Of a DNA stretch of 64,000 bases, positions 19,172 through 43,947 are shown one piece after another; within the stretch, counting starts at the first letter, position 1; each line of letters opens with the position of its first letter. The translations under genes and the position numbers were made by a program. The DNA lies in contig NZ_BMGL01000009.1 of assembly GCF_014640175.1 (NCBI RefSeq), positions 1 through 64,000 of the forward strand. The letters are read 5' to 3'. The DNA is from Psychroflexus salis (GTDB lineage Bacteria; Bacteroidota; Bacteroidia; Flavobacteriales; Flavobacteriaceae). The notes under the pieces are model-generated. The model was not told the origin of the DNA. It saw nothing but the letters and a program-made list of their open reading frames with translations, and did no database searches.

Positions 19172-19192
19172 TTAACTATTTGATAATTGACT

Positions 19193-19204: not shown

Positions 19205-19603
19205 ATGAAATTGTTTGCTACTTATTCGTTAATTGCTTTGTTTACATTCCAATCCTTTGGAATTAATGCAATTGGTTTGGTGAATTTATCAAATTTAATT
19301 TCTCATTATCAACATCACAAAATTGAACATCAAGATAGCTTTTTAGAATTTCTAGATTTGCATTATGGCAGTCAAAAAGAAGCACATTCTGATGAACACG
19401 ACGAACATGAAAATCTACCTTTCCAAGATGTTATTTCATTAGTGAGTAACTTATACTTTACCACTCCAGTCTCTGTTCAACTGCTTCCGATTCAAATTAC
19501 AATTTCTTCAACAAAAAACTTCGAGTACCAAGATTATTTTTCAACTTTACACCCTGCTGAAATTCTTCAACCCCCAAAATTTTTGATTGAGACTAAAATT
19601 TAA
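19205..19603 (+). CDS. Small exported His/Glu-rich protein heading the efflux operon
   Basis: A 132-residue protein from the ATG at 19205. The upstream ATG at 19187 would precede the promoter's -7 box. The N-terminus KLFATYSLIALFTFQSFGIN is a signal peptide or membrane anchor. The rest is rich in His and acidic residues (HYQHHKIEHQDS, HYGSQKEAHSDEHDEHE) followed by LPFQD and a late PAEILQPPKF. Small proteins with such HYG, DEHE and PP motifs are frequent first genes of heavy-metal RND operons in Bacteroidota. No function is established. A periplasmic metal-binding or sensing role is inferred from its composition and from its position 31 bp before czcA. Confidence 0.72.
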   Translation: MKLFATYSLIALFTFQSFGINAIGLVNLSNLISHYQHHKIEHQDSFLEFLDLHYGSQKEAHSDEHDEHENLPFQDVISLVSNLYFTTPVSVQLLPIQITISSTKNFEYQDYFSTLHPAEILQPPKFLIETKI

Positions 19604-19634: not shown

Positions 19635-22600
19635 ATGCTTTCAAAAATTATTGAATTTAGCTTAAAATCTAAGTTCTTCATCATTTTATTTATTACAGGA
19701 ATTGTAGGTTTTGGCATCTACAGTTTAAGCCAAATTAGCATTGGTGCCGTACCCGACATTACCAACAACCAAGTACAAGTAATTACAACATCCCGCAACC
19801 TTTCTACTGCAGATGTAGAGCAATTTTTAACCTATCCTATTGAACTAGAAATGGCTAATTTACCGGGTGTAAAAGAAATTCGTTCTACATCAAAATTTGG
19901 TCTTTCTGTGGTTACTATTGTGTTTGAAGATGAAATGGGAACCTATTTACCACGACAACTCATTTCAGAAAAAATTAAAGCAGCTGCAGAACATATTCCA
20001 AGCGAGTTTGGCAGCCCTAAAATGGGGCCAATTACAACAGGTCTTGGCGAAATTTACCAATACACGCTTGAAGTAGAAGAAGATTACAAAGAAAAATACG
20101 ATGCTACAGAATTGCGAAGCATTCAAGATTGGGTGGTTAAACGCCAGTTGGCAGGAATAAAAGGTGTGGTAGAAATAAACACTTGGGGCGGTTATTTAAA
20201 AGAATATGAAGTTGCTTTTGCTAGCGAAGAATTGCAAGCTAAAAATATTTCAATTACTGAAATTTTAGAAGCCCTAGAGAACAACAATTCCGTTGCTGGT
20301 GGAAGCTATATCGAAAAAAATGAACAAGCCTACTTTATTCGTGGAGAAGCTTTGCTGAAAGATATAGAAGATATTGAAAATATTGTTGTCGAAAATCGAA
20401 ATGGTCAACCCATTTTAATTCGTGATGTGGCAAATGTTGGCTTTGGGCATGCCAGAAGATTTGGAGCCATAACTGGAAATGGCGAAGGCGAAAAAGTCTT
20501 GGGGCAAATTATGATGCTGAAAGATGCCAACTCCAACCAAGTAATTAATGATGTAAAACAACGCTTAAGAGAGATTGAAAATACACTTCCAGAAGGTGTT
20601 TACATCAATGGATTTTTAGATCGAAGTGAACTGATTAGCAGAACAACTTCTACCGTTGTAGAGAATTTACTTCTCGGTTTTTTGGTGGTAACTTTTATTG
20701 TTATTCTATTAATCGGCGATTACCGTTCTGGATTAATTATTTCTTCCGTTATACCACTGAGTTTTCTAATTGCCATTAGCTTAATGTACATTTTTAATAT
20801 CGATGCCAATTTAATGAGTTTAGGTGCCTTAGATTTTGGAATCATTATCGATGGCGCAGTTATAATAGTTGAATTTGTTGCCTTTAAAATGCTGATGAAA
20901 TCCAAACAATTTAAAGCTTCAACAGCTAAAGACTTACAACAATTGAAAGATAAAGTAACCTTTACAGGAGCAAGTAAAATGATGAACTCTGCCATTTTTG
21001 GACAATTGATTATTTTAATAGTATTCATTCCTATTTTATCCTTAACCGGTGTTGAAGGCAAAATGTTTAAACCCATGGCATTAACTTTCAGTTTCGCATT
21101 AATCGGCGCTGTTATTTTATGTTTTACCTGGATTCCTGTAGCGAGCAGTTGGTTTTTGAAACCCGAAAAATTAAAAGAAAAAAATCTTTCATCTAAAATC
21201 ATCGATCAAATTAATCGCCTCTATAACCCTAGTATTAAATGGGCGTTGGAAAATACTAAACTGGTTTTAGTTTCGGCAATAATTTTAGTATTTGTTGGGG
21301 TTTTTACGTTCATCAAAATGGGAAGTGAATTTGTACCGACCTTAGATGAAGGCGATTTTGTAATTCAGCCCATATTAAAAACAGGGAAATCGCTAGAAGG
21401 CACAATAGAACGAACTACACAGATTGAAAAAATTTTATTAGAAGAATTTCCTGAAGTTGTACAGGTGGTTTCTAGAATTGGTGCAGCCGAAATCCCAACC
21501 GACCCTATGTCTATGCAAGATTCTGATGTTATTATTCGCCTTAAGCCCAAAAGCGAATGGACATCTGCAGATACTAAAGAAGAATTGGCCGAATTGATAA
21601 AGGATAAATTAAGCATTATTCCTAATATGGAAATCGAATTTACCCAGCCTATCGAAATGCGTTTTAATGAGTTAATAACTGGTGTTCGCTCCGATGTGGC
21701 TATTAAAATTTTTGGTGAAGATTTAGATATACTAGCCAAAAAAGGAAATGAAGTACGAGAGTTGGTAGAAAATATAAAAGGTGTTGGCGATATTTCGGTT
21801 GAAAAAATTGTGGGTTTACCACAGATGTCGGTTAAATATAACCGAAGTAAAATCGCTAGATACGGTTTGCAAATTAAAGGCATTAACGATGTAATTTCTG
21901 CTGGATTTGCTGGTAAAAAAGCTGGTGTAATATTTGAAGGTGAGAAACGTTACGATTTGGTTGTTCGGCTAAAAGAAAACCAACGGAAAGATATTACCAA
22001 CTTGCAAAATTTAATGATTAACACGCCTAACCATGGGCAAATCCCATTGAACGAAGTTGCCGAAGTTACATACGATAAAGGTCCAGCTAAAATTTCGAGA
22101 GACGAAACCCGAAGAAGAATTGTAGTAGGTATTAACGTTCGAAATCGCGACTTAAAATCGGTTGTAGACGATGCTAAAAAAACCATTTCTAAAAATTTAA
22201 ATCTACCTACAGGCTACAGCATTACCTACGGCGGCCAATTTGAAAACTTAGAAAGTGCAACAAAACGTTTGCAAATTGCTGTACCTATTGCTTTAATTTT
22301 GATATTTATTATGCTTTATTTTGCTTTAAAAACCATTAAAGATGCACTGCTTATTTTTACTGCTATTCCATTTTCTGCAGTAGGTGGTATTTTCTTGTTG
22401 TGGCTTCGCGATATGCCATTTAGCATTTCTGCAGGTGTTGGTTTTATAGCACTATTTGGTATAGCGGTGCTCAACGGAATTATACTTGTAGAATATTTTA
22501 AAGATTTACAAGAAAATGGCGAAAACTTAACGCATCATAACATTATAAAAGCTACCAAAAATCGTCTCCGGGCAGTTTTACTAACCGCAAGTTCCACCGC

Positions 22601-23969
22601 ACTAGGATTTTTACCCATGGCTATTTCTACTGGAGCTGGAGCTGAAGTACAACGCCCTTTAGCAACTGTAGTTATTGGCGGATTAGTAACTTCTACCCTA
22701 CTTACATTAATCGTATTACCAGTGCTGTACTCCATTTTTGAAGGAAAAAACAAAGCTATGAAACACTCAAAACCTAAAACCAATATCGTGTTGCTGATCT
22801 TATTTGGCTTTGGAAGTGTAATTTCCACTCAAGCACAAAATAAAGAACTAGACAGTTTAAAAAACTTAATGCTAAGCAACAACAAAGGTTTGCAAGCTTC
22901 GAGTAAGAATATTGAACAAAGTAAAATGGCAGAAGGTGAAGCTTTTCAGTTTCAAAAGTTTCAAGTTTATCAAAATTATGATGAAGCGGAATGGGATCCA
23001 ATAGCTAATCGACCTTTATACCAATGGGGAGGAATTCAGAATTTCGACTTCCCTACCGTATATGGCAAGCGTCTACAACGAAATAAATCGATAACTGAAG
23101 TAAAAGGCAGTGAAAATGAATTGGCAATTCAACGACAAATGCAAAATTTAGAAATACTTTATCATCAACAAATGGTCTTGTTTTCTAAAATGGAAATTTA
23201 TAAAGACTTAAACCAAATTTACGCTGACTTTTATAGAATGGCTTCGCGGCGTTTTGAAGAAGGAGAATCTACTTACTTAGAAAAAATAACAGCTCAAGCT
23301 AAACAATCCCAGATTGAAAATCAGTTACAATTGCTCGATGCGGAGCTAAAAAACAACCAACTCCAATTGCAAAACTTGGTACAGACTGACGATGAAATTC
23401 GCTTACAAATCAAAAAAACAAAACGCTTAAACCTACAAATGAATAATTTAGAAAATCATCCAAATTTAGCATTAAAAGAAGCCGAAGTACAATTGGCAGA
23501 AAAAGAATTGAGTTTGGCCAAGAACGAATTGCTACCTGGTATTTCAGCTAGTTATTTTGTTAGAAGTAATTCTTCTATAGAAAGAAACTTTAATGGCTAT
23601 CAAATTGGATTAAATCTCCCGTTATTGTTTTTTGGCGACCGGGCAAAAATTAAAGCACAGAAAATTAAAACTGAAGTAATTCAATTTGAAAAAGAACAAA
23701 TTCAGCTCGACATAAGCAATCGTCAGGATCAATTACTCAATCGCATTACTGCGCAAACCGAAAGCTTAAATCGATTTGAAGAAACCCAATTAAAGGTAGC
23801 TGAAGAAATTTTAAAAACAGCAGAGAGCAGCTTCAAAAATGGAGAAATCAACTTCTTTCAGTATGCGCAAAGTGTGGACAATGCTTTGCAAATTAAATTA
23901 GAGTACCTCAACTTACTCGCCAATTACAACCAACAAATCATTCAATTTAATTACCTACTTTTAAACTAA
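19635..23969 (+). CDS. czcA: CzcA-type heavy-metal RND efflux pump fused to a CzcC/TolC-like outer-membrane domain
   Basis: A 1444-residue protein. Residues 1 to about 1035 are a complete HME-type RND pump (AVPDITNNQVQV, GPITTGLGEIYQYTL, FVPTLDEGDF). The proton-relay acids are D400, D406 and E413 (DFGIIIDGAVIIVE). FNELITGVRSDVAIKIFGED and AEIPTDPMSM resemble CzcA/CnrA rather than CusA, so Zn/Co/Cd export is more likely than Cu. This is inferred from motifs. At residue 1042 a new Met opens a signal-peptide-like stretch (about KHSKPKTNIVLLILFGFG, ending STQAQ). It is followed by about 380 residues of outer-membrane-factor type with two coiled-coil hairpins (MQNLEILYHQQMVLF, FKNGEINFFQYAQSVDNAL). 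Fusions like this occur in Bacteroidota. The adaptor follows after 4 bp. Confidence 0.93.
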   Translation: MLSKIIEFSLKSKFFIILFITGIVGFGIYSLSQISIGAVPDITNNQVQVITTSRNLSTADVEQFLTYPIELEMANLPGVKEIRSTSKFGLSVVTIVFEDEMGTYLPRQLISEKIKAAAEHIPSEFGSPKMGPITTGLGEIYQYTLEVEEDYKEKYDATELRSIQDWVVKRQLAGIKGVVEINTWGGYLKEYEVAFASEELQAKNISITEILEALENNNSVAGGSYIEKNEQAYFIRGEALLKDIEDIENIVVENRNGQPILIRDVANVGFGHARRFGAITGNGEGEKVLGQIMMLKDANSNQVINDVKQRLREIENTLPEGVYINGFLDRSELISRTTSTVVENLLLGFLVVTFIVILLIGDYRSGLIISSVIPLSFLIAISLMYIFNIDANLMSLGALDFGIIIDGAVIIVEFVAFKMLMKSKQFKASTAKDLQQLKDKVTFTGASKMMNSAIFGQLIILIVFIPILSLTGVEGKMFKPMALTFSFALIGAVILCFTWIPVASSWFLKPEKLKEKNLSSKIIDQINRLYNPSIKWALENTKLVLVSAIILVFVGVFTFIKMGSEFVPTLDEGDFVIQPILKTGKSLEGTIERTTQIEKILLEEFPEVVQVVSRIGAAEIPTDPMSMQDSDVIIRLKPKSEWTSADTKEELAELIKDKLSIIPNMEIEFTQPIEMRFNELITGVRSDVAIKIFGEDLDILAKKGNEVRELVENIKGVGDISVEKIVGLPQMSVKYNRSKIARYGLQIKGINDVISAGFAGKKAGVIFEGEKRYDLVVRLKENQRKDITNLQNLMINTPNHGQIPLNEVAEVTYDKGPAKISRDETRRRIVVGINVRNRDLKSVVDDAKKTISKNLNLPTGYSITYGGQFENLESATKRLQIAVPIALILIFIMLYFALKTIKDALLIFTAIPFSAVGGIFLLWLRDMPFSISAGVGFIALFGIAVLNGIILVEYFKDLQENGENLTHHNIIKATKNRLRAVLLTASSTALGFLPMAISTGAGAEVQRPLATVVIGGLVTSTLLTLIVLPVLYSIFEGKNKAMKHSKPKTNIVLLILFGFGSVISTQAQNKELDSLKNLMLSNNKGLQASSKNIEQSKMAEGEAFQFQKFQVYQNYDEAEWDPIANRPLYQWGGIQNFDFPTVYGKRLQRNKSITEVKGSENELAIQRQMQNLEILYHQQMVLFSKMEIYKDLNQIYADFYRMASRRFEEGESTYLEKITAQAKQSQIENQLQLLDAELKNNQLQLQNLVQTDDEIRLQIKKTKRLNLQMNNLENHPNLALKEAEVQLAEKELSLAKNELLPGISASYFVRSNSSIERNFNGYQIGLNLPLLFFGDRAKIKAQKIKTEVIQFEKEQIQLDISNRQDQLLNRITAQTESLNRFEETQLKVAEEILKTAESSFKNGEINFFQYAQSVDNALQIKLEYLNLLANYNQQIIQFNYLLLN

Positions 23970-23973
23970 GACC

Positions 23974-25134
23974 ATGAAAAATATAAACATATACAGTAGT
24001 TTACTTTGTTTTTTGCTCTTTATAAATTGTGCAGAACAAACAACAACAGAAAAAAATGAAGAAAAAGAAGAACACCATACACATGAAGATGAAGTAATCA
24101 TCACCAAAACACAATTTAATAATGGAGATTTTGAAATAGGAGAAGCAGAAAACAAAACATTTGCAGAAACATTTCGTGTAACCGGCATGATTGATGTTCC
24201 TCCAAAAAATCGCGCTTTAGTAAGTTCCTTTTTTAGTGGATTTGTAAGCAAAACCAGTTTATTGGTTGGAGATGAAGTACAAAAAGGAGATTTATTGCTT
24301 CAACTAAAAAACCCAGATTTTATTGAGCTTCAACAAAATTATGCTGCAAATGCTAGTAAATTGGAATATCTTAACTCAGAATTTCAGCGCAAGCAAAATT
24401 TACGGGCCGATCAAGTTATTTCAGAAAAAGCATTTCAAAAAGCCAAAAGCGATTACTTACAAATGCAAGCCAAAGTATTAGGATTAAAGAAAACTTTGCA
24501 ATTAATGAATGTAAATACCAAATCGGTTTTAGCGGGAAATTACAGTGATGAAATCAGTATATATTCTCCCATTAGCGGGAAAATTGCCAAGATAAATGTT
24601 GCTCAAGGAATGTTTTTGGACAATTCAACTTTAATTATGGAGATTTTAGATACTGACCATGTTCATTTGGAGTTAGATGTGTTTGAAAAAGACATTTTAA
24701 AAGTAAAAAAAGGAGATAGTTTGAAATTCAAAATTCCTGAAATTTCAGACCAAAAATATGCCGCATATGTACAACTTATTGGTGCTGAAGTTAACGAAAA
24801 CAGAAGTGTTCGCATACATGCACATCCAATAAACGAAGATGAAAAATTTGCGGTTGGCATGTTTGTAGAAGCCTATTTTGTAAGTAATGCTAAACAAGAA
24901 ATAGCTCTACCATCAACAGCATTTGTAGAGCATGAAAACAAATTGCATGTGCTTCAACTTAAAGAAGAAACCGCTGATGCTTTGCATTTTAAACTTATAG
25001 AAGTAGAAAACCTTACAGAGCAAAATAATTTTAAGCCTTTGCGAAGCGATAATTCTTTTTCGAAGAAAACTCGATTTTTAACCCAAGGCGCCTTTGATGT
25101 AGTTGAAGGCGAAGGTGGTGGGCATGACCATTAA
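23974..25134 (+). CDS. czcB: Efflux RND periplasmic adaptor lipoprotein (CzcB/CusB type)
   Basis: A 386-residue membrane-fusion protein with a lipoprotein signal (YSSLLCFLLFINC, lipid Cys at residue 19). The N-terminus of the mature protein is a metal-binding-looking KEEHHTHEDE, and the C-terminus ends GGGHDH. The barrel-sandwich core shows GFVSKTSLLVGDEVQKGDLLLQL, a short helical hairpin (QLQNYAANASKLEYLNSEFQRK region) and IYSPISGKIAKINVAQGMFL. A beta-barrel with HVHLELDVFEKDIL follows. It bridges the inner-membrane pump and the outer-membrane channel. It starts 4 bp after the pump gene, so it is in the same operon. Confidence 0.92.
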   Translation: MKNINIYSSLLCFLLFINCAEQTTTEKNEEKEEHHTHEDEVIITKTQFNNGDFEIGEAENKTFAETFRVTGMIDVPPKNRALVSSFFSGFVSKTSLLVGDEVQKGDLLLQLKNPDFIELQQNYAANASKLEYLNSEFQRKQNLRADQVISEKAFQKAKSDYLQMQAKVLGLKKTLQLMNVNTKSVLAGNYSDEISIYSPISGKIAKINVAQGMFLDNSTLIMEILDTDHVHLELDVFEKDILKVKKGDSLKFKIPEISDQKYAAYVQLIGAEVNENRSVRIHAHPINEDEKFAVGMFVEAYFVSNAKQEIALPSTAFVEHENKLHVLQLKEETADALHFKLIEVENLTEQNNFKPLRSDNSFSKKTRFLTQGAFDVVEGEGGGHDH

Positions 25135-25152: not shown

Positions 25153-25830
25153 ATGAATACTTCAAACTTTAAGCTATTAATTGCGGAAGATGAATACGAA
25201 ATAGCCACGTTTTTAAAAAAAGGTATACAAGAAGAAGGTTACCAAGTTAAGTTAGTCACCAATGGTGAAGAAGCAATAAATTACATAGAAAAAAATCATG
25301 TAGATTTAGTTATACTAGATTGGATGATGCCTAAGGTGAGCGGAATACAAACCTGTAAAACCTTAAGAACAAAGGATTTTAAAGGACCAATTATTTTTTT
25401 AACAGCGAAAGACAAAGTTGAAGATACGATTACAGGTTTAAAATCAGGAGCAAACGACTATTTAAAAAAACCATTTCATTTTTCTGAATTATTAGCACGC
25501 ATTGAAATTCAAATAAAAACATTTTACAAAATTGGTGAGCTCCTAGAATTGGACTTTTTAAAAGTAGATACTTCTAGGCATATTGTTTATAGCCAAGAAG
25601 AAATAATAAACTTAACCGAAAAAGAATATCAAATGCTTGTCTATTTAATTAGAAATAAAGGGCAAGTTTGTAGTCGCCAAAAAATCATTGAAGATGTCTG
25701 GGACATTCATTTTGAATACGATACTAGTGTCTTAGACGTACACATGAATGCTTTACGCAAAAAACTTAATTTAAAAAGAGACCAACTGATAAAAACTATC
25801 CGTGGAGCAGGTTTTAAAGCAGAAGAATGA
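25153..25830 (+). CDS. OmpR/PhoB-family response regulator
   Basis: A 225-residue two-domain regulator. The receiver domain has the acidic pocket E12-D13, phosphoacceptor D56 (VILDWMMP) and the TAKDK lysine. The C-terminal winged helix carries LTEKEYQMLVYLIRNKGQVCSRQKI and VHMNALRKKLN. It is probably the metal-responsive regulator of the efflux operon in which it sits (18 bp after czcB). Its gene overlaps the kinase gene by 4 bp (ATGA). OmpR-family dimers bind direct repeats with about 11-bp spacing, and such a repeat (CTTAAG-N5-CTTAAG) sits just downstream of the kinase gene at 27201-27217. Confidence 0.94.
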   Translation: MNTSNFKLLIAEDEYEIATFLKKGIQEEGYQVKLVTNGEEAINYIEKNHVDLVILDWMMPKVSGIQTCKTLRTKDFKGPIIFLTAKDKVEDTITGLKSGANDYLKKPFHFSELLARIEIQIKTFYKIGELLELDFLKVDTSRHIVYSQEEIINLTEKEYQMLVYLIRNKGQVCSRQKIIEDVWDIHFEYDTSVLDVHMNALRKKLNLKRDQLIKTIRGAGFKAEE

Positions 25831-27194
25831 ATTTATCCATAAAAAATAGAATTGCTTTTATTTCTACTATTTTGGTAGCCTTGTTATCGTTTACTATATT
25901 TATAAGCATATATCAAAGTTTAAAAATTTCATCTTTCAGTGAAATTGATGAAAAACTAGAATTTGAAGCCAACAAACACTTCAACGAATTAATTTTTGAA
26001 AAAGACAGCGTTTATTTTGCTTATCCAGAAGAACTTTTAGAAAGAGAACATTTAGAAATTGAAGTATATCCTATTTATATAGAACTTGTTAACACCAATG
26101 GAAAACTACTAGTAAAGTCAGAAAATCTAAAAAATGAGCGCATTGTTAATGAAACTTTTTCAACTAAAAAAATAATTTTTAACAGCCAAGTTTTAGAAGA
26201 ACCCCTTCGTCAAATTCAACTTAATCTAATAAAAAACAATCAACATTACGGACACCTAGGTATTGCTGTTTCAACAGAAGATACGCTTTCCGTTTTACAA
26301 AATCTAAAGCAAAACCTAATTGCTATCTATCCTTTTTTATTGTTTATTACCTTTTTTGCTTCAAGATATATTTCTAAAATTACTATACAACCACTCACAA
26401 AAATTGCCGATACTGTTGAGATTATATCAGCCAGTAACTTAAATTTGAGAGTAAAGGAAATAAATGGAAAAGACGAATTAAGCGTACTGTCTAAAAGTAT
26501 AAATAGTTTTCTAGACCGAATTCATACTTCTATTGAAAAGGAAAAAGAATTTACAGCCAATGCTTCGCATCAATTAAGGACACCACTTACTGCAATTAAA
26601 GGCAATTTAGAAGTATTGCTTAGAAAAAAAAGAACAGTAGTAGAATATAAAGAAAGCATTGAAGAAACAATAGATAGGATAAATAGACTAAATCTTGCGT
26701 TAGATAATTTGTTAATGTTAGCTAGGTTAGATGAAGATGCCAAACAACTTAAAAAAACAAAAATTAACGTAATTGATATATTCAATTCGAAAATCAAATT
26801 ATTTAAAGCACAAATTAAAGAAAAGGAATTGCGTATAATTCTAGATGAAAAACTAACTAGTCCAATACTAGAGACCAATGTTTATTTTCTGAAAATTATT
26901 TTAGAAAACCTAATGTCCAATGCCATTAAATATTCTGAAATTAAGCATCCAATTAAAATCACTTTAGAAGAGCAAAGTAATTTTATAAAAATATCTATTT
27001 CAAATAAAGGTGGTAATTTAAAAGAAGAAGATGTGAATTCTATTTTTGAAATTTTTCACAGACCAAAAGACACTACCGAGAAAGGCCATGGAATTGGTTT
27101 GGCTTTAGCAAAAAAAGCAGCCAATTTATTAGGTTATCAAATTAAAGTTAAGCTAAATAACCAAACAACTTTTGTACTTTATATTCCTAACTAA
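25827..27194 (+). CDS. Sensor histidine kinase
   Basis: A 455-residue membrane kinase. Helix 1 is IAFISTILVALLSFTIFISIY. A periplasmic sensor loop (about 35-155) is rich in Glu and Phe and has no His cluster. The second helix LIAIYPFLLFITFFASRYI leads to a HAMP domain. The dimerisation box has the phospho-His H248 (NASHQLRTPLTAIKGNLEVLL). The catalytic domain shows LENLMSNAIKYS (N box) and GHGIGLALAKKAA (G box). The layout is that of CusS/CzcS-type metal sensors. It is translationally coupled to the response regulator. The gap to the thioredoxin gene is 84 bp and carries the regulator-like repeat. Confidence 0.93.
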   Translation: MNLSIKNRIAFISTILVALLSFTIFISIYQSLKISSFSEIDEKLEFEANKHFNELIFEKDSVYFAYPEELLEREHLEIEVYPIYIELVNTNGKLLVKSENLKNERIVNETFSTKKIIFNSQVLEEPLRQIQLNLIKNNQHYGHLGIAVSTEDTLSVLQNLKQNLIAIYPFLLFITFFASRYISKITIQPLTKIADTVEIISASNLNLRVKEINGKDELSVLSKSINSFLDRIHTSIEKEKEFTANASHQLRTPLTAIKGNLEVLLRKKRTVVEYKESIEETIDRINRLNLALDNLLMLARLDEDAKQLKKTKINVIDIFNSKIKLFKAQIKEKELRIILDEKLTSPILETNVYFLKIILENLMSNAIKYSEIKHPIKITLEEQSNFIKISISNKGGNLKEEDVNSIFEIFHRPKDTTEKGHGIGLALAKKAANLLGYQIKVKLNNQTTFVLYIPN

Positions 27195-27200
27195 GCTAAA

Positions 27201-27219
27201 CTTAAGATTGGCTTAAGAT
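27201..27219 (+). promoter_or_regulatory. Perfect 11-bp-spaced direct repeat, likely response-regulator operator
   Basis: CTTAAGAT occurs at 27201-27208 and again at 27212-27219, giving CTTAAG-N5-CTTAAG. The spacing equals one helical turn. This is the arrangement bound by OmpR-family regulators; the PmrA box has this form. It lies between the stop of the kinase gene and the start of the thioredoxin gene, so the adjacent regulator probably controls the thioredoxin-ApbE operon. Binding is inferred. Confidence 0.55.
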
Positions 27220-27278: not shown

Positions 27279-27707
27279 ATGAAAACAATACTTTTTTTAT
27301 TAATAGTTAATTTGAGTATTCCCTCTTTTGCTCAAAATTGGCAACTAGATTTAGAGCAAGCTAAGCTGGAAGCAAAAAAACATCAAAAACAAATTTTGCT
27401 GGTTTTTTCTGGTTCAGATTGGTGTGGACCTTGCATTAAACTTGACCAAGAAATTTGGCAAACAGCAGTGTTTAAAAAACATGCAGAAGCCAATTTAATT
27501 TTGGTAAAAGCAGATTTTCCAAAAAGGAAAGGCAATAAATTATCTGAAAATCAAGCTATAAAAAACACAAAACTTGCTGAAAAATATAATCCTAAGGGTC
27601 ATTTCCCTTTGGTTATATTACTTAACGACAAAGGTGAAGAATTAAATAAGTTAGGCTACAAAAATCTTACTCCAGAACAATACATATTGGCTATTCATGA
27701 AAAATAA
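27279..27707 (+). CDS. Exported thioredoxin-fold protein (WCGPC)
   Basis: A 142-residue protein with a signal peptide (residues 1-18, ending SFAQ). A thioredoxin-like domain follows whose active site is W-C49-G-P-C52 (FSGSDWCGPCIKL). The fold continues with ILVKADFPKRK and KGHFPLVILLNDKGEELNKLGY, where the cis-Pro follows the F. It resembles the thioredoxin_7/DUF255-like reductases found beside ApbE genes. It acts in the periplasm, probably as a thiol reductase for a partner such as the CGC-tailed lipoprotein two genes on. The partner is an inference. It overlaps apbE by 11 bp and is the first gene of the four-gene operon. Confidence 0.88.
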   Translation: MKTILFLLIVNLSIPSFAQNWQLDLEQAKLEAKKHQKQILLVFSGSDWCGPCIKLDQEIWQTAVFKKHAEANLILVKADFPKRKGNKLSENQAIKNTKLAEKYNPKGHFPLVILLNDKGEELNKLGYKNLTPEQYILAIHEK

Positions 27708-28680
27708 TGTCATTTTATTTTGTTTGATGCTAGGTTGTTTTTCAATTCACAGTCAATCTACCTATAAGAGAAATTTCAACTCAATGGGATGCAATTTTGA
27801 CATCACCATAACAGCAAACTCTCAAAAAGAAGCAAACACAAAGATTGATTTAGCTATAGAAGAGATTGAACGTATTGAGCATTTAATCTCGTCTTGGAAA
27901 CCCACTTCTCAAACTTCTAAAATTAATCGAAATGCAGGCATCAAACCTGTAGTTGTAGACCATGAGCTTTTTCAACTCATTAAACGCTCTATTGCTTTAT
28001 CTGAAATTACTGATGGTGCTTTTGATATAAGTTTTGCTGCTACCAACAAAATATGGAAATTCAATGGTAAAGAAATGGAAATGCCTAGTAAAGTAGAAAT
28101 AGCGGAATTTATAAAAGCAATTGGATACAAGGATATTATTTTAAATAATGAAGAAAGTTCTGTTTTTCTTTCCAAAAAAGGAATGAAGATAGGATTTGGT
28201 GCCATAGGTAAAGGTTATGCAGCTGATAAAGCTAAGCATTTATTACAACAGCATGGAGTTTTAGCTGGTATTATTAATGCTTCTGGAGATATGAATAGTT
28301 GGGGTTTACAACCATCGTCAATTCCTTGGAAAGTAGCTATTGTAAATCCTTTAGATGTTTCAAAAAACTTTGGCCTATTTGAGCTTAAAAACAGTGCTGT
28401 TGTAACTTCTGGTAACTATGAAAAATATCTAACGATTGAAGGTAAAAGATATGCACATATTATCGATCCCAGAACAGGCATGCCTACAAAAGGTATTTTA
28501 AGTGTTACTGTATTTGCTCCAAAAGCTGAAATGGCAGATGCATTAGCAACAGCCGTATTTGTATTAGGCGATGAATTAGGCATAAGCTTAATAAATCAAC
28601 TTCCAAAAGTAGAAGCCATTATTGTAAAAGATGATGGCAATTTAAAAACTTCGAATAACATAAACGTTTCAACAAAATGA
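27697..28680 (+). CDS. apbE: FAD:protein FMN transferase ApbE
   Basis: ApbE attaches FMN covalently from FAD to Thr/Ser of exported redox proteins. This 327-residue copy has a signal sequence (VILFCLMLGCFSIHSQ; the Cys within it could alternatively be lipidated). The family signatures are FNSMGCNFDITITA, FDISFAATNKIWKF, IGFGAIGKGYAADKAK, NASGDMNSWG, AHIIDPRTGMPTKG and the metal-binding MADALATAVFVLG. The usual targets (FMN-binding domain, NqrB/C, RnfG) are not encoded in the window, so the substrate may be one of the following two gene products or lie elsewhere. It overlaps thioredoxin (11 bp) and DUF4266 (ATGA). Confidence 0.94.
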   Translation: MKNNVILFCLMLGCFSIHSQSTYKRNFNSMGCNFDITITANSQKEANTKIDLAIEEIERIEHLISSWKPTSQTSKINRNAGIKPVVVDHELFQLIKRSIALSEITDGAFDISFAATNKIWKFNGKEMEMPSKVEIAEFIKAIGYKDIILNNEESSVFLSKKGMKIGFGAIGKGYAADKAKHLLQQHGVLAGIINASGDMNSWGLQPSSIPWKVAIVNPLDVSKNFGLFELKNSAVVTSGNYEKYLTIEGKRYAHIIDPRTGMPTKGILSVTVFAPKAEMADALATAVFVLGDELGISLINQLPKVEAIIVKDDGNLKTSNNINVSTK

Positions 28681-28889
28681 TCAAATCAATTTCTAAACTT
28701 TTAATTATCAGTCTTTTTTTTACCTCTTGTGTAGCGGTTAAAGAATATGAGAAGGTCAATATTAATGACCCTGACATGAAGCTTTCCGAACGTGATTTAG
28801 ACAAGTATAAATCAACTTTCCAATCTTATCGGGAAGCAGCGGCTGGAGCTAATGGTGGCAAAACAGGTGGTGGTTGCGGTTGTAATTAA
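28677..28889 (+). CDS. DUF4266 small lipoprotein with a GGGCGCN tail
   Basis: A 70-residue lipoprotein. The signal KLLIISLFFTSC puts the lipidated Cys at residue 18. The mature part has the DUF4266-like core VKEYEKVNINDPDMKLS, a helix DLDKYKSTFQSYREAAAGA and a Gly-rich tail that ends K-T-G-G-G-C67-G-C69-N70. The C-terminal CGC is the striking feature. It could bind a metal, carry a disulfide or be a modification site. Function unknown. It is translationally coupled to apbE and followed 11 bp later by the DUF3570 gene, so it belongs to the same redox module. It was recognised by the tail and context. Confidence 0.85.
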   Translation: MIKSISKLLIISLFFTSCVAVKEYEKVNINDPDMKLSERDLDKYKSTFQSYREAAAGANGGKTGGGCGCN

Positions 28890-28900
28890 TTATATACAAA

Positions 28901-30232
28901 ATGAAGAACTATAATTTAATAATTGTATTTTCTATTTTAAGCTTTTTATCTGTAAAAGCACAAAATAAAGAAACGAACTACAAAAAAAAGGTTCTCGATC
29001 AAACCGAAATGAAGCTCTTGAGCAGCTACTATTCGCAAGATGGTGAAAATGCTTCAGTAAGTGGTGGTATTGGTAGCGAAGAACTTACCGATATTGCTTC
29101 TACTATTGTAGTAGCTATTCCATTGAATGATGACGATATTTTAACCATAGATGGAAGTATTTCTGCATATACATCTGCTTCATCAAGTAATATTAATCCG
29201 TTTGATGGCAATCAACCAGCTGATCCATTTGTTGCATCTTCGGGTGCATCAAGGCAAGACGTATGGAGTAATGTAGTAGTTTCGTATACGCATTCATCAG
29301 ACGATAGAAATTTTAATTGGACAGGAAATGTTTCTTTTGCCAATGAATATGACTATACTTCTATCGGTTTTGGTGGGAGTGTTTCAAAGCTATTTAACCA
29401 AAAAAATACAGAAATAGGCCTAAAAGCTAATGTATTTCTAGACCAATGGTCACCACAATATCCAATAGAATTGAGAAATGGATTAGGAAAGAATTTACTT
29501 CCTAAAGATGATGGTGGTAAATTTAATTTATCAAATTATATCATAGAAGGCAATCAAGAATACAATATTTCTTTTACCAATTTCGATAATTTAAATCGAA
29601 ACTCTTACAGTTTAGGAATCAGTTTTTCACAAATTCTTTCTAAAAAAGTACAAACTTTGTTTTTAGCAGATTTTATTTTTCAAGATGGTTTATTGTCTAC
29701 CCCTCATCAACGAATTTACTTTGGAGATATAGAAGATAGCTTTATCGAAAACTTTCAATTAGCAAACGACATAGAACGTTTACCAGACACCCGAACAAAA
29801 ATTGCCATAGGGAATAGAACTAATTTTTACATCAATGAAAATCTAGTTATTCGAAGTTTTTATCGCTTTTACACAGACGATTGGGGCATTAATTCGCATA
29901 CGGCTAAAATAGAAACGCCAATTAAAATAGGTGATTTTTTTACAATCTATCCCATGTACCGGTTCTATACTCAAAACAAGGCGGATGATTTTTACTTATA
30001 TAATCAAGCTCTATCAACAGCAAAATATTATACTTCCGATTACGATTTAGCGTCATACGATGCCCATCAGTATGGTCTTGGTTTCAAATATTACGACCCT
30101 TTAGGCAAATTCAATTTAAGTTATTTAAAATTAAAAAGTATCGAATTAGAATTCAATGCATACGAAAGAAGCCAATTTAATTATACCGCAAATATATTTT
30201 CACTCGGATTTAATTTTACGTTAGAAAAATAA
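28901..30232 (+). CDS. DUF3570 outer-membrane beta-barrel protein
   Basis: A 443-residue exported protein with a signal peptide (ending SVKAQ, residues 1-21). The N-terminal part contains ASVSGGIGSEELTDIAST, TIDGSISAYTSASSSN and ASSGASRQD. Repeated amphipathic strands follow (FNWTGNVSFANEYDYTSIGFGGSV and LVIRSFYRFYTDDWGINSHTA). The last residues FSLGFNFTLEK look like a barrel-ending strand. The family DUF3570 has no established function. The thioredoxin-ApbE-DUF4266-DUF3570 order suggests an envelope redox system in which this is the outer-membrane part. The short SGAS at 114-117 partly resembles ApbE flavinylation motifs. It converges on the porin gene 9 bp away with no terminator between. 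Confidence 0.85.
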   Translation: MKNYNLIIVFSILSFLSVKAQNKETNYKKKVLDQTEMKLLSSYYSQDGENASVSGGIGSEELTDIASTIVVAIPLNDDDILTIDGSISAYTSASSSNINPFDGNQPADPFVASSGASRQDVWSNVVVSYTHSSDDRNFNWTGNVSFANEYDYTSIGFGGSVSKLFNQKNTEIGLKANVFLDQWSPQYPIELRNGLGKNLLPKDDGGKFNLSNYIIEGNQEYNISFTNFDNLNRNSYSLGISFSQILSKKVQTLFLADFIFQDGLLSTPHQRIYFGDIEDSFIENFQLANDIERLPDTRTKIAIGNRTNFYINENLVIRSFYRFYTDDWGINSHTAKIETPIKIGDFFTIYPMYRFYTQNKADDFYLYNQALSTAKYYTSDYDLASYDAHQYGLGFKYYDPLGKFNLSYLKLKSIELEFNAYERSQFNYTANIFSLGFNFTLEK

Positions 30233-34459: not shown

Positions 34460-34489
34460 TTTGTTATTTAGAATCATTCCATATATTTG
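34460..34489 (+). promoter_or_regulatory. Promoter with overlapping Fur-like palindrome, iron operon
   Basis: TTTG at 34460-34463, an 18-bp spacer and TATATTTG at 34482-34489 make a good Bacteroidota -33/-7 promoter. Overlapping the spacer and -7 box is a 7-1-7 type palindrome, TTTAGAAT-C-ATTCCATA (34467-34483), in which 6 of 8 half-site pairs match. Fur-family repressors bind such sites. Transcription would start near 34494, about 20 nt before the ATG at 34515. Confidence 0.6.
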
Positions 34490-34514
34490 TCCAAGAAAAA
34501 CAAAAAAATATAAA

Positions 34515-35645
34515 ATGAAGATTTTAAAACACTCTCAATTAGCTATTCTCACAGGTATATTTGCTTTAAGTTTATGGTCATGCTCAGACGACGATGATAA
34601 TGGACTACAAGGATTAACTGTTCCTGATAACTATGTTTCTGTAGATTATGCTACAAATGCTGCTACGGAAGATATGGTAATTGATGAACTTGGAAGTTTA
34701 ACTGCTGATGTTAATGATGCTGAAGCTTCTGCACCCAACGCGGGTATTTCATCTATTGATTATCCTTCAACTTTAGCTTCTATTACAGAATCTAACTATA
34801 AAACACTTGTTGAAGGATGGCTACCAGAATTGGTAAATGCTGCTAATTCTAGCGAAGCTTTTGTAAATCCTGGTTTAGGTAACACTCCAGATGGTACTAG
34901 TGAAGGTGGTTTGTTAGGCACAAGACTTTTAGACGAATATGGACTTGAACTTGAGCAAATGGTAGAAAAAGGTTCTTTTGGTGCTGCGCTTTACAATCAC
35001 GCCATTACAGTAGTAAATAATATAAAATCAGGAGAAGAAGGCTTCAATAATAGTGATGCAATCGATAGACTGGTCGAGATACACGGCACGGAGCCAAGTT
35101 TTGATATAACTGAAGTAACGGCAGCTGCTAAATATTCTAAAAGACGTTCTGATTTAGCTGCACAAACAGGTTTCTTTTTTGATATTAAAAACAACCTAAT
35201 TACAGCTAAAGCTGCTATGGATGCGGGTAACAACTTTAATGTAGAAAGAGATAATGCTTTAGATGAATATTTATTGAACTGGGAAAAATCTAACTTTGCA
35301 ACGGTTATTTTTTACTGTAAATCTACTGTAGATCAATTAAACGGTGCTTTTCAATTAGCCGATGGTGAACAAAGAGAAATTGCTTTAGGTAATGCAATGC
35401 ATGCTTATGGTGAAGGAGTTGCTTTTGCTCATGGTTTCAAAAGAATGCCCATAAAACAAATTACAGATGCTCAAATAGATTTCATTTTAAGTGAATTAAA
35501 AGCTGAAGAAGGACAAAACCCTGAAAGTTACCAATTTTTGAATGATACAAGTCTTTTACAAAATTTGGAAGACTTAATAGGTTACATTCAAAATATTTAC
35601 AACTTTAGCGATGCAGAAGTTGAAAGTTTTTATGTTAACAACTAA
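34515..35645 (+). CDS. DUF4856 lipoprotein, first gene of iron-type operon
   Basis: A 376-residue lipoprotein. The start at 34515 gives a clean signal with Cys at 23 (ALSLWSCSDDDD). A frame opening at 34461 would start upstream of the promoter. The mature protein is largely helical: AATEDMVIDELGSLTADVN, YNHAITVVNNIKSGEEGFNN, and GNAMHAYGEGVAFAHGFKRMP with a His pair. This matches what I know of the DUF4856 family, an imelysin-like relative found beside imelysin genes in Bacteroidota. It is probably a periplasmic or surface lipoprotein of iron acquisition. The ligand is unknown. A hairpin lies between it and the next gene. Confidence 0.75.
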   Translation: MKILKHSQLAILTGIFALSLWSCSDDDDNGLQGLTVPDNYVSVDYATNAATEDMVIDELGSLTADVNDAEASAPNAGISSIDYPSTLASITESNYKTLVEGWLPELVNAANSSEAFVNPGLGNTPDGTSEGGLLGTRLLDEYGLELEQMVEKGSFGAALYNHAITVVNNIKSGEEGFNNSDAIDRLVEIHGTEPSFDITEVTAAAKYSKRRSDLAAQTGFFFDIKNNLITAKAAMDAGNNFNVERDNALDEYLLNWEKSNFATVIFYCKSTVDQLNGAFQLADGEQREIALGNAMHAYGEGVAFAHGFKRMPIKQITDAQIDFILSELKAEEGQNPESYQFLNDTSLLQNLEDLIGYIQNIYNFSDAEVESFYVNN

Positions 35646-35664
35646 AAAAAATAGCATTTAATTA

Positions 35665-35695
35665 AGCGGACTTTGCTAATTTGTGCAAGTCCGCT
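35665..35695 (+). promoter_or_regulatory. Intra-operon hairpin between DUF4856 and imelysin genes
   Basis: AGCGGACTT (35665-35673) pairs perfectly with AAGTCCGCT (35687-35695). The inner TGC/GCA extends the stem after one bulged base. No run of T follows (ATTTAAAAT), so it is a weak terminator at most. It may stabilise the upstream mRNA or reduce read-through into the later genes. Confidence 0.55.
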
Positions 35696-35713
35696 ATTTA
35701 AAATATAAAGACT

Positions 35714-36847
35714 ATGAAAATTAAGAATTTCTATTATCTACTTACTGTTTTACTAATGGCTTTTGGTATAGTGGCTTGTTCTTCTGATGATTCTGACGGA
35801 GAAAATAACATAACCAACAATTTTGACAGAAACAAAATGTTAACCAATTGGGCAGACAATTTAATTATTCCATCCTATCAAAATTTTGCTAGTAAAACAA
35901 ATTCACTACAAACGGCAAACACTACCTTTGTTAACGAGACTAACTTAGAAAACCTGACAAATTTAAGAGCTGCTTGGCAAGATGCTTACATTGCATGGCA
36001 AAAAGTAGAAATGTATGATATTGGACCTGCAAGAGATGTGGTTTTACGGTCGTTTGTAAACACCTACCCCACAAACGCCGAAAACGTAAATTTGCTTATT
36101 GAAAGCCAAAATTACAACCTAGCTGACCCTAACTTAAATGACGAACAAGGTTTTCCTGCATTAGATTATCTACTTTTCGGAATTGCAGAGAGCGATACAG
36201 AATTAGTTGAATTATACGATAACGATGCAAATGGAGATAAATACCGCCAATATTTAACCGATGTAGTTACTAGGATAAATAGCCTTGGTGCTCAGGTTTT
36301 AGATGATTGGCAAAATGCATATCGAGATGTGTTTGTTCAAAATTCAGGTTCTTCTGCAAATAGTTCTACCAACAGGATGGCCAACGTTTTTATGGAATAT
36401 TACGAAGTTCGGTTTAGAAATGGAAAAATAGGTTTTCCAGCCGGTGTGTATTCGGGTGGCGACCCACAACCAAATCGAGTTGAAGCTTTTTATAATAAAG
36501 AATTATCTAAGTCGCTTGCCCTAGAAGCTTTAGAAGCACATAAAAATTTCTTTAATGGAAATGAATTTAATGAAAACACTTCTGCTGAAAGTTTCGCAAA
36601 TTATCTCGACTTTTTAGATGTAATAAAAAATGGAGATAGCTTAAGCTCTTTAATTAATAATCAATACGAAGAATCCATTACTAGTATTAATGCACTAGAT
36701 AATAGTTTTTATAATCAAATAAACACTAACAATAACGGAATGTTAGAAGTTTTTGAAAGTCTACAAGACAATGTAGTTTTTCTAAAATCTGATATGTTTT
36801 CTGCTTTGAGTATTGCGTTAGAATTTGATAGTGGAGATGGTGATTAA
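35714..36847 (+). CDS. Imelysin-family lipoprotein (IrpA/EfeM-like)
   Basis: A 377-residue lipoprotein (GIVACSS, Cys at 22) of the imelysin family, which is generally associated with iron uptake. The family core LTNLRAAWQDAYIAWQKVEMYDIGPARD and NAYRDVFVQNSGSSANSSTNRM with GFPAGVYSG near the end are well kept. The usual GxHxxE motif is here G146-F-P148-A-L-D151 (GFPALDYLLFG). The His and Glu are replaced by Pro and Asp, so a metal-binding or peptidase role through that motif is unlikely. It follows DUF4856 after 68 bp and precedes HTTM and a TonB receptor, consistent with an outer-membrane iron import operon. Confidence 0.86.
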   Translation: MKIKNFYYLLTVLLMAFGIVACSSDDSDGENNITNNFDRNKMLTNWADNLIIPSYQNFASKTNSLQTANTTFVNETNLENLTNLRAAWQDAYIAWQKVEMYDIGPARDVVLRSFVNTYPTNAENVNLLIESQNYNLADPNLNDEQGFPALDYLLFGIAESDTELVELYDNDANGDKYRQYLTDVVTRINSLGAQVLDDWQNAYRDVFVQNSGSSANSSTNRMANVFMEYYEVRFRNGKIGFPAGVYSGGDPQPNRVEAFYNKELSKSLALEALEAHKNFFNGNEFNENTSAESFANYLDFLDVIKNGDSLSSLINNQYEESITSINALDNSFYNQINTNNNGMLEVFESLQDNVVFLKSDMFSALSIALEFDSGDGD

Positions 36848-36882
36848 CCGATAACTATTTAATAATCTTTTAGCCTATTTAC

Positions 36883-38244
36883 TTGAACAAACAAATTCTC
36901 AATTACTTAACAACTCCTATAAAAGCCGCTCCACTAGCGGTTTTTAGAGTTATATTTGGACTCTTAATGCTTTACACGACTTTGCGTTTTGTAGGGCAAG
37001 GATGGGTAGAAAAATATTACATAGTACCTCAATTTCATTTTAAATATTATGGATTTGAATTTGTAGAATCCTTAGGGGTTTATACCTATTTGCTTTATCT
37101 AATATCCTTTTTAGCAGCCATTGGGGTTACAATTGGTTATAAATATAGGTTATCTATTTTAATTTTCTTTTTGAGTTTTACCTACTGCGAACTCATTGAC
37201 AAAACTTACTACCTCAATCACTATTACTTTGTGAGTATTATAAGTTTTTTGCTAATCTTTTTGCCGGCTAACGCCTATTTTTCAATTGATGCTTTCCAGA
37301 ATAAAAAAATAGCTTTTCATAAAATTCCGCGTTACAATATTTTTGTAATTCAATTCATGTTAAGCATAGTTTACTTTTATGCAGGATTAGCTAAAATAAA
37401 TTCAGAATGGTTATTCAACGCCATGCCACTTAAAATTTGGTTACCATCGCGTTATGATTTACCTGTTTTAGGTCAACTATTTCAACTGGAATGGGTACAT
37501 TATGTTATGAGTTGGAGCGGAATGCTATATGACTTACTTATTCCTTTTTTATTGTTCAATAAGCGCACAAGAACATTTGCTTTCGTTTTAGTAGTTGTTT
37601 TTCATGTGATGACTCGCGTTTTATTTCCAATAGGCATTTTCCCATATGTAATGATTTGTGCGACACTCATCTTTTTTGATGCTTCATTTCACGAAAAAAT
37701 TATCACATTTATTCGAAAGTCTTTCAATTTAAAAAACACACAAGAGCAAGCTGTATTAGAATGGAAACCAAGCTTTAGGAAAAAGACATTAGCCGTTTTT
37801 TTTATTGTTTTTTTCAGTTTTCAATTGGTGTTCCCATTTAGGTATTTGCTTTATTCAGACGAATTGTTCTGGACCGAAGAAGGTTACCGATACTCTTGGA
37901 GAGTTATGCTGATGGAAAAAGGTGGTTATGTTCAATTTAAAGTGGTAAATCCAACTACGGATAAATGGTTTTATGTAGAGAATCAAAATTTCTTAACGGA
38001 ATACCAACAAAAACAAATGCGCATACAAGCAGACTTAATTTTAGAATTTGCTCATTATTTAGAAGATTACTACCAAGAAAAAGGGATTTCGAACCCAGAA
38101 ATTTATGTGGATAGTTTTATTGCCTTAAATGGAAGAACTAGTAAACGCTACATAGATCCTAATGTAGATCTCACAAAAGTAAAAGACACTTGGCAACACA
38201 AAAATTGGATTTTACCTTTTAATGAAAAGATTTATGGTTTTTAA
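36883..38244 (+). CDS. HTTM-domain membrane protein (vitamin K-dependent carboxylase-like)
   Basis: A 453-residue protein with an N-terminal multi-helix HTTM domain (about 10-280). Signature stretches are PLAVFRVIFGLLMLYTTLRFV, LINKTYYLNHYYFVSIISFLLIF-type, FVIQFMLSIVYFYAGLAKINSEWL and AFVLVVVFHVMTRVLFPIGIFPYVM. A soluble C-terminal domain follows (FSFQLVFPFRYLLYSDELFWTEEGYRYSWRVM). The start codon appears to be TTG at 36883; the first in-frame ATG comes at about residue 29, inside the first helix. The family is related to gamma-glutamyl carboxylases, but its bacterial function is not known. It lies 35 bp after the imelysin gene and overlaps the TonB receptor gene by 23 bp, so it belongs to this transport operon. 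Confidence 0.8.
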   Translation: MNKQILNYLTTPIKAAPLAVFRVIFGLLMLYTTLRFVGQGWVEKYYIVPQFHFKYYGFEFVESLGVYTYLLYLISFLAAIGVTIGYKYRLSILIFFLSFTYCELIDKTYYLNHYYFVSIISFLLIFLPANAYFSIDAFQNKKIAFHKIPRYNIFVIQFMLSIVYFYAGLAKINSEWLFNAMPLKIWLPSRYDLPVLGQLFQLEWVHYVMSWSGMLYDLLIPFLLFNKRTRTFAFVLVVVFHVMTRVLFPIGIFPYVMICATLIFFDASFHEKIITFIRKSFNLKNTQEQAVLEWKPSFRKKTLAVFFIVFFSFQLVFPFRYLLYSDELFWTEEGYRYSWRVMLMEKGGYVQFKVVNPTTDKWFYVENQNFLTEYQQKQMRIQADLILEFAHYLEDYYQEKGISNPEIYVDSFIALNGRTSKRYIDPNVDLTKVKDTWQHKNWILPFNEKIYGF

Positions 38245-43578: not shown

Positions 43579-43947
43579 GTGAGTTTTCAGCTAAAAATAT
43601 ATACTTTTTTGTTTATGTTCATTATTACAATGAGCACACTAAAGCAATCTTTCTTTTTTGGCTACTATATTGTATTTACCGAAAACTTTATAGAAAACTT
43701 TTGCGAAAACAAAGATAAACCTGAATTAGAGTGCGACGGAAAATGTTTTTTAAGCGATTTAATTGATCGGAATAATTCAGATTCAGTTGAAATTCCGCCT
43801 TATATCGAAAATCAATTAGTGCTTTTTTATCAAGAAAATGAAACGGCAAGTTTTCAGTTTATAACTTTACCGCATTCTTTATTTAACTACTCTAATAACT
43901 ATCAATTCGACTATTCGAGTTTTAATTTTAAACCACCCAATGTGTAA
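43579..43947 (+). CDS. Small membrane-anchored Cys-rich protein preceding a copper receptor
   Basis: A 122-residue protein from a GTG at 43579. An ATG at 43615 is the other choice, but homologues I recall have the longer N-terminus. The anchor is YTFLFMFIITMSTLKQSFFFGYYIVF. The soluble part has the motif C42-E-N-K-D-K-P-E-L-E-C52-D-G-K-C56-F-L-S-D-L. Such CxNKDKPxxxCxGxC proteins recur before copper and other TonB receptor genes in Bacteroidota, and a copper-binding chaperone role is inferred. It precedes the receptor by 83 bp and would share its promoter. No experimental function is known to me. Confidence 0.75.
   Translation: MSFQLKIYTFLFMFIITMSTLKQSFFFGYYIVFTENFIENFCENKDKPELECDGKCFLSDLIDRNNSDSVEIPPYIENQLVLFYQENETASFQFITLPHSLFNYSNNYQFDYSSFNFKPPNV

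Follow-up and report, generated by a model that had tools for sequence, protein, structure and literature searches.

A DUF3570 flavinylation module beside a metal-efflux operon of Psychroflexus salis: a candidate two-component-controlled thiol-to-flavin relay to the outer membrane

Introduction

Gene clusters combining ApbE, the enzyme that attaches flavin mononucleotide (FMN) to exported proteins, with DUF3570, thioredoxin and DUF4266 proteins were described by Meheust et al. (2021; PMC8238504). As reported in the main text of that paper, gel fluorescence revealed that ApbE of Chlorobium luteolum attaches flavin to the DUF3570 protein of this organism at two [S/T]GA[S/T] motifs. Of 285 flavinylation clusters with DsbD, 227 contained DUF3570, 221 contained DUF4266 and 183 contained the thioredoxin PF13899, whereas a further 316 clusters consisted of the four families without a neighboring DsbD. 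The CXC end of DUF4266 was already remarked on there. The function of the module was left open, with iron assimilation offered as a possibility on the basis of clusters containing VIT1. Here we analyze a module of this kind in Psychroflexus salis, at positions 27,279 to 30,232 of a 64,000-nucleotide stretch of contig NZ_BMGL01000009.1 (positions 1 to 64,000; "the window" throughout). The original prediction, made from the DNA letters, had regarded these genes as the window's best candidate for an undescribed system and had stated that no known ApbE target family was encoded. Both statements had to be given up, as the four-family cluster was published in 2021 and DUF3570 is a demonstrated ApbE substrate (PMC8238504).

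In the literature searched, supplements not included, DUF3570 and DUF4266 were found by name in PMC8238504 only, and no report linked the module to a metal regulon. The terms efflux, Rieske, barrel and copper had 0 occurrences in the main text of PMC8238504, its supplements set aside. In the accessible text of a vanadium review (PMC13102585), apbE came up in connection with E. faecalis and as an entry of a list, and nowhere else. What is new here is a regulatory and structural variant of a known gene set, comprising a barrel model, a repeat near a two-component system and a Rieske partner. The module of the window shares with the DUF3570 clusters of Meheust et al. all four families, DUF3570 as flavin carrier and the CXC end of DUF4266, and like 316 of theirs it lacks a DsbD neighbor (PMC8238504). 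It differs from the clusters presented in that main text by an HME-RND pump with its two-component system, a shared operator and the barrel model, to which relatives add the Rieske partner; furthermore, its first DUF3570 site reads TSAS instead of [S/T]GA[S/T].

We propose, with a probability of roughly 0.55, that the module is a thiol-to-flavin electron relay to the outer membrane, controlled by the two-component system and serving a metal-linked stress response. The proposal builds on gene content, co-inheritance, a predicted barrel, the conservation of its flavin sites and a direct repeat associated with the two-component system, all obtained by computation. DUF3570 modules are common (PMC8238504), and the tie of one of them to a predicted two-component operator, which relatives also carry in front of a metal-efflux pump, provides a short list of inducers with which their function could be approached. 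If the flavins of the barrel lie on its outer face, the module would offer a haem-free electron route to the cell surface.

The four-gene module and its inheritance

The module starts with an exported, DsbH-like thioredoxin of 142 amino acids with a WCGPC motif (27279..27707, forward strand, like all window features below; PF13899, Thioredoxin_7, 52.1 bits). It is followed by an exported ApbE, a flavin adenine dinucleotide (FAD):protein FMN transferase of 327 amino acids (27697..28680; PF02424, 282.4 bits), and by a DUF4266 lipoprotein of 70 amino acids ending in GGGCGCN (28677..28889; PF14086, 72.6 bits). The last gene encodes a DUF3570 protein of 443 amino acids, a member of the ApbE substrate family and, according to AlphaFold2 and Foldseek, a 16-strand outer-membrane barrel (28901..30232; PF12094, 109.8 bits). 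Adjacent genes overlap by 11 bp and 4 bp and are then separated by a gap of 11 bp, as calculated from the coordinates of the open reading frames (ORFs). All four domains scored above the curated Pfam cut-offs; genes, coordinates and spacing agreed with the original prediction.

Three samples were used for comparison, namely 247 Bacteroidota genomes, 40 loci drawn from them and 80 named loci of relatives, some of the latter cut by contig ends. DUF3570 was found in 71 of the 247 genomes. DUF4266 was present in 69 of these 71 and in 0 of the 176 others; G213, one of the two DUF3570 genomes without DUF4266, carries merely an 87-amino-acid DUF3570 fragment near a contig start. The neighbor clusters of the 80 named loci contained DUF3570 in 80, ApbE in 75, the thioredoxin in 73 and DUF4266 in 71 cases, and a DUF4266 ORF was recovered by phmmer in 79. 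As the families recur side by side in 80 named relatives, the four-gene arrangement is not due to chance. Independent distribution of the families, which would have spoken against the original prediction, was not what we observed; the earlier view of an extracytoplasmic redox module is supported, with its families being co-inherited. The order thioredoxin-ApbE-DUF4266-DUF3570 was the usual one in Flavobacteriaceae and their kin, with exceptions, in the 40 plus 80 loci. A distant group, family f17, which is probably Chlorobiaceae, mostly showed the order DUF4266-DUF3570-ApbE.

WCxPC was present in the module thioredoxin of 72 of 73 named relatives, and the tail GGGCGCN of DUF4266, which constitutes the CXC end in the window ORF, was kept in 79 of 79 DUF4266 ORFs from named relatives. 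Modeled alone, DUF4266 gave low confidence with a predicted local distance difference test (pLDDT) score of 58, and below 50 for residues 59-70. A tail that is invariant and nevertheless of low confidence in the solo model suggests that it acquires its fold on a partner.

DUF3570 was also detected in 5 plasmid records, 2 from Hymenobacter and 3 from Vibrio. Among the annotated DUF3570 neighbors of the two Hymenobacter plasmids, for which the gene table is incomplete, no metal-resistance gene was present by name; one of these plasmids carries an RND set of unassigned type about 3 kb from DUF3570. In one of the three Vibrio records, a megaplasmid, thioredoxin, DUF4266, DUF3570, ApbE (read by eye) and DsbD form a single run. 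On the plasmid of Hymenobacter sp. DG25B (L188) DUF3570 is annotated in two pieces, reflecting a frame break or a sequencing error. Multiple copies were seen in family f17: L093 (G201:C45) has four DUF3570 and two DUF4266 genes, and other f17 genomes also carry several DUF3570 genes. Some of these multi-copy proteins contain extra SGAS-like motifs and are possible multi-flavin versions.

Flavin sites and barrel model of DUF3570

Alignment of DUF3570 proteins placed two predicted flavin sites in the window protein. The first is Ser94 (codon 29180..29182) in TSAS, residues 91-94, with S for the G of the canonical motif; the second is Ser117 (codon 29249..29251) in SGAS, residues 114-117, which matches the [S/T]GA[S/T] motif of PMC8238504. 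Among 62 aligned proteins the first site read TSAS in 55 and SSAS in 7, with S92-A93-S94 invariant in 62 of 62. The second site was SGAS in 48, TGAS in 7, SGES in 6 and TGDS in 1, i.e. [S/T]GAS in 55 of 62. Both window sites lack the aspartate with which the fuller motif D-x-x-[S/T]-G-A-[S/T] begins. In another flavinylated protein, replacement of G by A reportedly left about half of the flavinylation and loss of the aspartate had little effect (PMC12052999). For this reason flavinylation of Ser94 and of Ser117 appears plausible. A degenerate first site SGGI at residues 54-57 was considered and discarded, as an alignment of 44 Bacteroidota DUF3570 proteins led to TSAS 91-94.

The AlphaFold2 model of DUF3570, built with 62 sequences, reached a mean pLDDT of 88.5 and a predicted TM-score (pTM) of 0.83. 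It is a closed barrel with an even number of strands, 16 main ones as counted from the strand list rather than from coordinates, and its N and C termini therefore lie on the same face. Turns on the terminus face average 6.6 residues and the opposite loops 19.3 residues, and both flavin sites fall into the loop 93-119 on the long-loop side. The long-loop side of outer-membrane barrels is usually outside. By this convention both flavin sites are predicted on the outer face. A periplasmic flavin loop was considered and rejected, since the even strand number and the short turns on the N-terminal side put the loop on the long-loop side. Foldseek aligned the model with the porin-type barrels OccD2, FadL, OmpG and AlgE at E values of about 1e-10, with TM-scores to the query of 0.3-0.4. 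Conservation of the strand halves toward the two faces did not differ (0.745 versus 0.746, p-value of 0.48) and thus gives no clue as to which face is active. In 16 of 16 strands, positions pointing into the lumen were better conserved than those pointing to the lipid. This is weak evidence, as the assignment of facing relied on the hydropathy of the sequence itself and identity scores are biased toward polar sites.

The neighboring efflux operon

Upstream of the module lies a metal-efflux operon. Its first gene encodes a small, His-rich secreted protein without a Pfam family (19205..19603, with ATG at 19205 and an alternative TTG at 19187). Homologues were found in 13 named loci; the nearest module or pump gene was RND in 10 of these, and in L104 and L142 the homologue stands just before the thioredoxin gene. 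Then follow a metal-efflux permease of the HME-RND type that carries a fused outer-membrane channel domain of the OEP type (19635..23969; ACR_tran and OEP) and an RND periplasmic adaptor, or membrane-fusion protein (23974..25134; HlyD_D23; TIGR01730 above cut-off). The permease scored 1166 bits against TIGR00914 (CusA/CzcA HME-RND), above the curated cut-off of 701. A response regulator of the OmpR family (25153..25830) and a sensor histidine kinase (25827..27194) complete the set. Their best models were TIGR01387 with 201.5 bits (cut-off 279.2) and TIGR01386 with 181.1 bits (cut-off 292.55), respectively.

The permease scored higher with ZneA (630 bits) than with CusA (574 bits). At the positions aligned with the three periplasmic methionines of CusA it carries Q, D and E, as read by eye. 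A copper pump of the CusA type for Cu(I)/Ag(I) was rejected on the grounds of this ZneA-likeness and the absence of the CusA methionines.

Of the 15 genomes from the window's own family that carry the module, 7 (G000, G068, G084, G142, G202, G218 and G226) have an RND gene within about 10 kb of DUF3570, compared to 0.73 expected with generous copy numbers. Among the 80 named loci, RND was found in 14 (13 of the 54 loci flanked by 9 kb or more on each side), a two-component system in 8 and either of them in 18. The order pump, two-component system, module was found in L102, L103 and the window, pump followed by module in the Maribacter loci, and module, two-component system, pump in L064, L065, L068 and L073. 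In the congener G053 the His-rich, RND (65% identical) and adaptor genes are kept, with no module and no close kinase (best identity 28%). The two-component system and the module may have been gained or lost together, a view based on this one genome.

Operons of the CzcRS/CopRS type are the closest described relatives of this part of the locus. Shared features are the TIGR00914 permease, the adaptor, the regulator and the kinase, to which some relatives add an operator upstream of the pump and of the regulator gene. The flavin/thiol outer-membrane module as an additional target is a difference, as are a regulator and a kinase below the cut-offs.

In L071 (G202:C32) a second module-type thioredoxin gene stands directly before regulator, kinase, RND and adaptor genes; the stretch ends 345 bases past it. 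The RND, adaptor and ApbE ORFs of L152 are split by frame breaks or sequencing errors.

A direct repeat as predicted operator

The region between the kinase and thioredoxin genes contains an exact direct repeat of the form 8-3-8 with a period of 11 bp, CTTAAGAT-TGG-CTTAAGAT (27201..27219). It lies 60 bp upstream of the thioredoxin gene, and we predict it to be the operator of the response regulator. Direct repeats of this architecture are documented for OmpR-family regulators, as in the excerpted report on MtrA (PMC7380067). The exact repeat was the sole copy found in the genome; with up to 2 mismatches, 7 sites compared to 9 for the reversed control, i.e. no excess.

The repeat was first spotted in the window by visual inspection, and its occurrence in relatives was tested afterwards. 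Exact copies before the thioredoxin gene were present in L102, L103, L106, L107 and L150, and a copy with 2 mismatches in L158. In total, 6 of 8 named loci with a linked two-component system had the repeat there, compared to 0 of 65 others, with the thioredoxin recognized in 73 of the 80 (p-value of 1.6e-7). Extending the comparison to 121 sequences (window, 40 genome-derived loci and 80 named loci) and allowing up to 2 mismatches, the numbers were 12 of 14 versus 5 of 107 (p-value of 4e-11), the window being one of the 14 and not independent. Four of the five matches without a two-component system (L153, L157, L164, L174) look like chance, and the fifth, L079, has a pump. With up to 1 mismatch, 13 sites were obtained in the 121 sequences and 0 for reversed or re-spaced controls (four distinct controls), and these 13 sites stand 28-86 bp before an ORF start.

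Sites were found before the RND gene in L106 (exact), L064 and L073, and before a His-rich-type gene in L065, L068, L079, L102 and L158, where the likeness of the gene was judged by eye in all except L102. Furthermore, sites preceded the regulator gene in L106, L139 and L150, the gene for a DUF2231 protein in L106 and, in L079, the Rieske gene opening the module operon. Membrane protein genes after the kinase gene in L107 (5422-7410) and L150 (5345-7306) have their own operator copy. The L107 protein matches Sulfatase (PF00884), and this sulfatase-family membrane protein of L107 and L150 is a possible further member of the regulon. Altogether, the sequence suggests that the two-component system of the neighboring pump switches the module on. 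A metal-sensing two-component control had been predicted originally: for control by the adjacent system there is evidence in the sequence, and metal sensing is a conjecture, with both models below their cut-offs.

ApbE, DsbD and further partners

Two ApbE genes were found in the genome, the one of the module and one closing the nqr operon (NqrA, NqrB, an FMN_bind protein, an NqrF-like protein). As NQR has its own adjacent ApbE, the ApbE of the module is free for DUF3570; a role of the module enzyme in serving NQR was rejected for the same reason. A second FMN_bind protein of the genome is encoded on contig C13 of G000 (L198:5255-5851); its gene has a receptor-like gene nearby and no adjacent ApbE.

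The one DsbD gene detected in the genome lies on contig C13, outside the contig of the module, and comprises the domains DsbD_N, DsbD_TM and thioredoxin. We consider DsbD as the electron source because it stands in one run with the module on the Vibrio megaplasmid. The arrangement resembles the periplasmic reductases DsbD-DsbH in having a Thioredoxin_7 protein with WCxPC and a DsbD in the genome. It differs in that the window thioredoxin remained below the equivalog cut-off for DsbH (NF043050, 90.1 bits, cut-off 190) and is tied to a flavinylated-barrel family.

In 11 of the 80 named loci the module operon also encodes a Rieske [2Fe-2S] protein that resembles a lipoprotein and has the motif CxH...CxxH. 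Its gene lies just before the thioredoxin gene in 10 of them, with gaps of 12-32 bp in nine and an ORF overlap in L171, and between the thioredoxin and ApbE genes in L149. The three proteins tested (L175, L149, L079) matched PF00355 above cut-off. The window module has no Rieske gene at the corresponding place. A ferritin-family gene, identified from one tested member (PF00210), lies upstream of the thioredoxin gene on the same strand in 5 of the 80 loci, mostly from Aquimarina (L108, 7222-7725; L123; L156; L160; L169), and supports an iron role in that lineage.

Proposed mechanism and its alternatives

According to the proposed relay, an inner-membrane DsbD, encoded elsewhere in the genome, would supply electrons to the DsbH-like periplasmic thioredoxin. 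This protein would hand them to the DUF4266 lipoprotein with its CGC dithiol at the C-terminal end, which in turn could reduce FMN on the DUF3570 barrel, attached by the dedicated ApbE to Ser117 and probably to Ser94. The flavins would finally reduce an acceptor located at the outer membrane or outside it, for which we prefer a metal or a cell-surface disulfide. The response regulator would bind the repeat at 27201-27219 and induce the module upon a suitable signal, and the module would thereby serve the response to metal-linked, or metal-caused thiol, stress.

A number of observations weigh against this relay. Regulator and kinase fall short of the curated heavy-metal cut-offs, even though those are their best models. 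With a pump nearer to ZneA than to CusA, the likely substrate is no redox metal; the module would then not simply reduce the pumped metal, and another metal or metal-damaged thiols fit better. Pump or two-component system stand near the module in just 18 of 80 named loci, a minority feature, and since G053 has the pump operon alone, the pump does not need the module. On the regulatory side, the p-values for the repeat ignore common descent, L180 and L071 have a linked two-component system and no repeat, and the pump operon of the window has only a degenerate site with 4 of 16 mismatches. On the flavin side, the first site deviates from strict [S/T]GA[S/T], and the second reads SGES or TGDS in 7 of 62 proteins. 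In L123, L134, L156 and L160 thioredoxin, DUF4266 and DUF3570 with its flavin sites are kept, and no ApbE was found in the cluster. Finally, the ferritin neighbor in 5 of 80 loci fits an iron role.

The last point leads to an assimilatory iron reductase, in which the DUF3570 flavins would reduce ferric iron at the outer membrane and thereby aid uptake. Besides ferritin, which raised our estimate slightly, TonB receptor genes elsewhere in the window fit this role, and it is in line with what the main text of PMC8238504 suggested from VIT1-containing clusters. Nevertheless, the commonest non-core neighbors of the 80 loci were efflux pump, adaptor, His-rich protein and Rieske protein (clusters read mostly by eye), and we regard the iron reductase as unlikely. 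The stress to be answered could also be met without any extracellular acceptor: zinc or cadmium would block envelope thiols, and the module would keep cysteines of the outer membrane in the reduced state, or else the CGC, which would then serve as a metal ligand. The linked ZneA-like pump with its two-component system and the invariant CGC tail agree with such thiol repair or metal sequestration; however, it does not account for the two flavin sites that share one conserved loop of the DUF3570 barrel, and we consider it quite unlikely.

The direction of the electron flow has to be considered as well. A CGC dithiol beside a flavin could work in either direction, and Rieske proteins are often carriers of higher potential. 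A thiol oxidase, loosely comparable to Erv/Ero1, would run in reverse: electrons would go from the DUF4266 CGC to the flavins and on to oxygen or a different acceptor, and the envelope would gain disulfides or lose surplus thiols. Such a dithiol-flavin pair and the Rieske protein in 11 of 80 operons would agree with this. The DsbH-like thioredoxin with its almost invariant WCxPC and the DsbD in the run of the Vibrio megaplasmid argue for reductive flow, as do many DsbD-containing clusters in the main text of PMC8238504, and a reversed module is thus rather improbable in our eyes.

With regard to the proposed relay itself, its most far-reaching form would be a haem-free outer-membrane conduit induced by metal stress, in which the invariant and apparently disordered GGGCGCN tail of DUF4266 threads the conserved lumen of DUF3570 and brings thioredoxin-derived electrons to two covalently bound FMNs on the outer face. 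We consider this form speculative and unlikely. In porin-cytochrome conduits of the MtrCAB type, an outer-membrane barrel is likewise paired with redox cofactors that receive their electrons from the periplasmic side; the module differs in using flavins and a dithiol lipoprotein instead of haems and in the 16 strands of its model, and conduction across the membrane is a proposal in its case. If correct, it would represent the flavin-thiol counterpart of the porin-cytochrome complexes.

Other genes of the window

Downstream of the module, a TonB-dependent receptor gene (44031-46340) is preceded by a small ORF (43579-43947). The receptor contains a CPNRM (CxxxM) motif, and its best NCBIfam model was the copper receptor TIGR01778 with 259.6 bits (cut-off 472). 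At 34461-40717 an Imelysin gene (PF09375, at 35714), a gene for an HTTM/vitamin-K carboxylase-like protein (36883) and a TonB receptor gene (38222) stand in a row. Genes resembling the HTTM-like and receptor-like genes of the window, as judged by eye, were observed near the module in 5 loci each.

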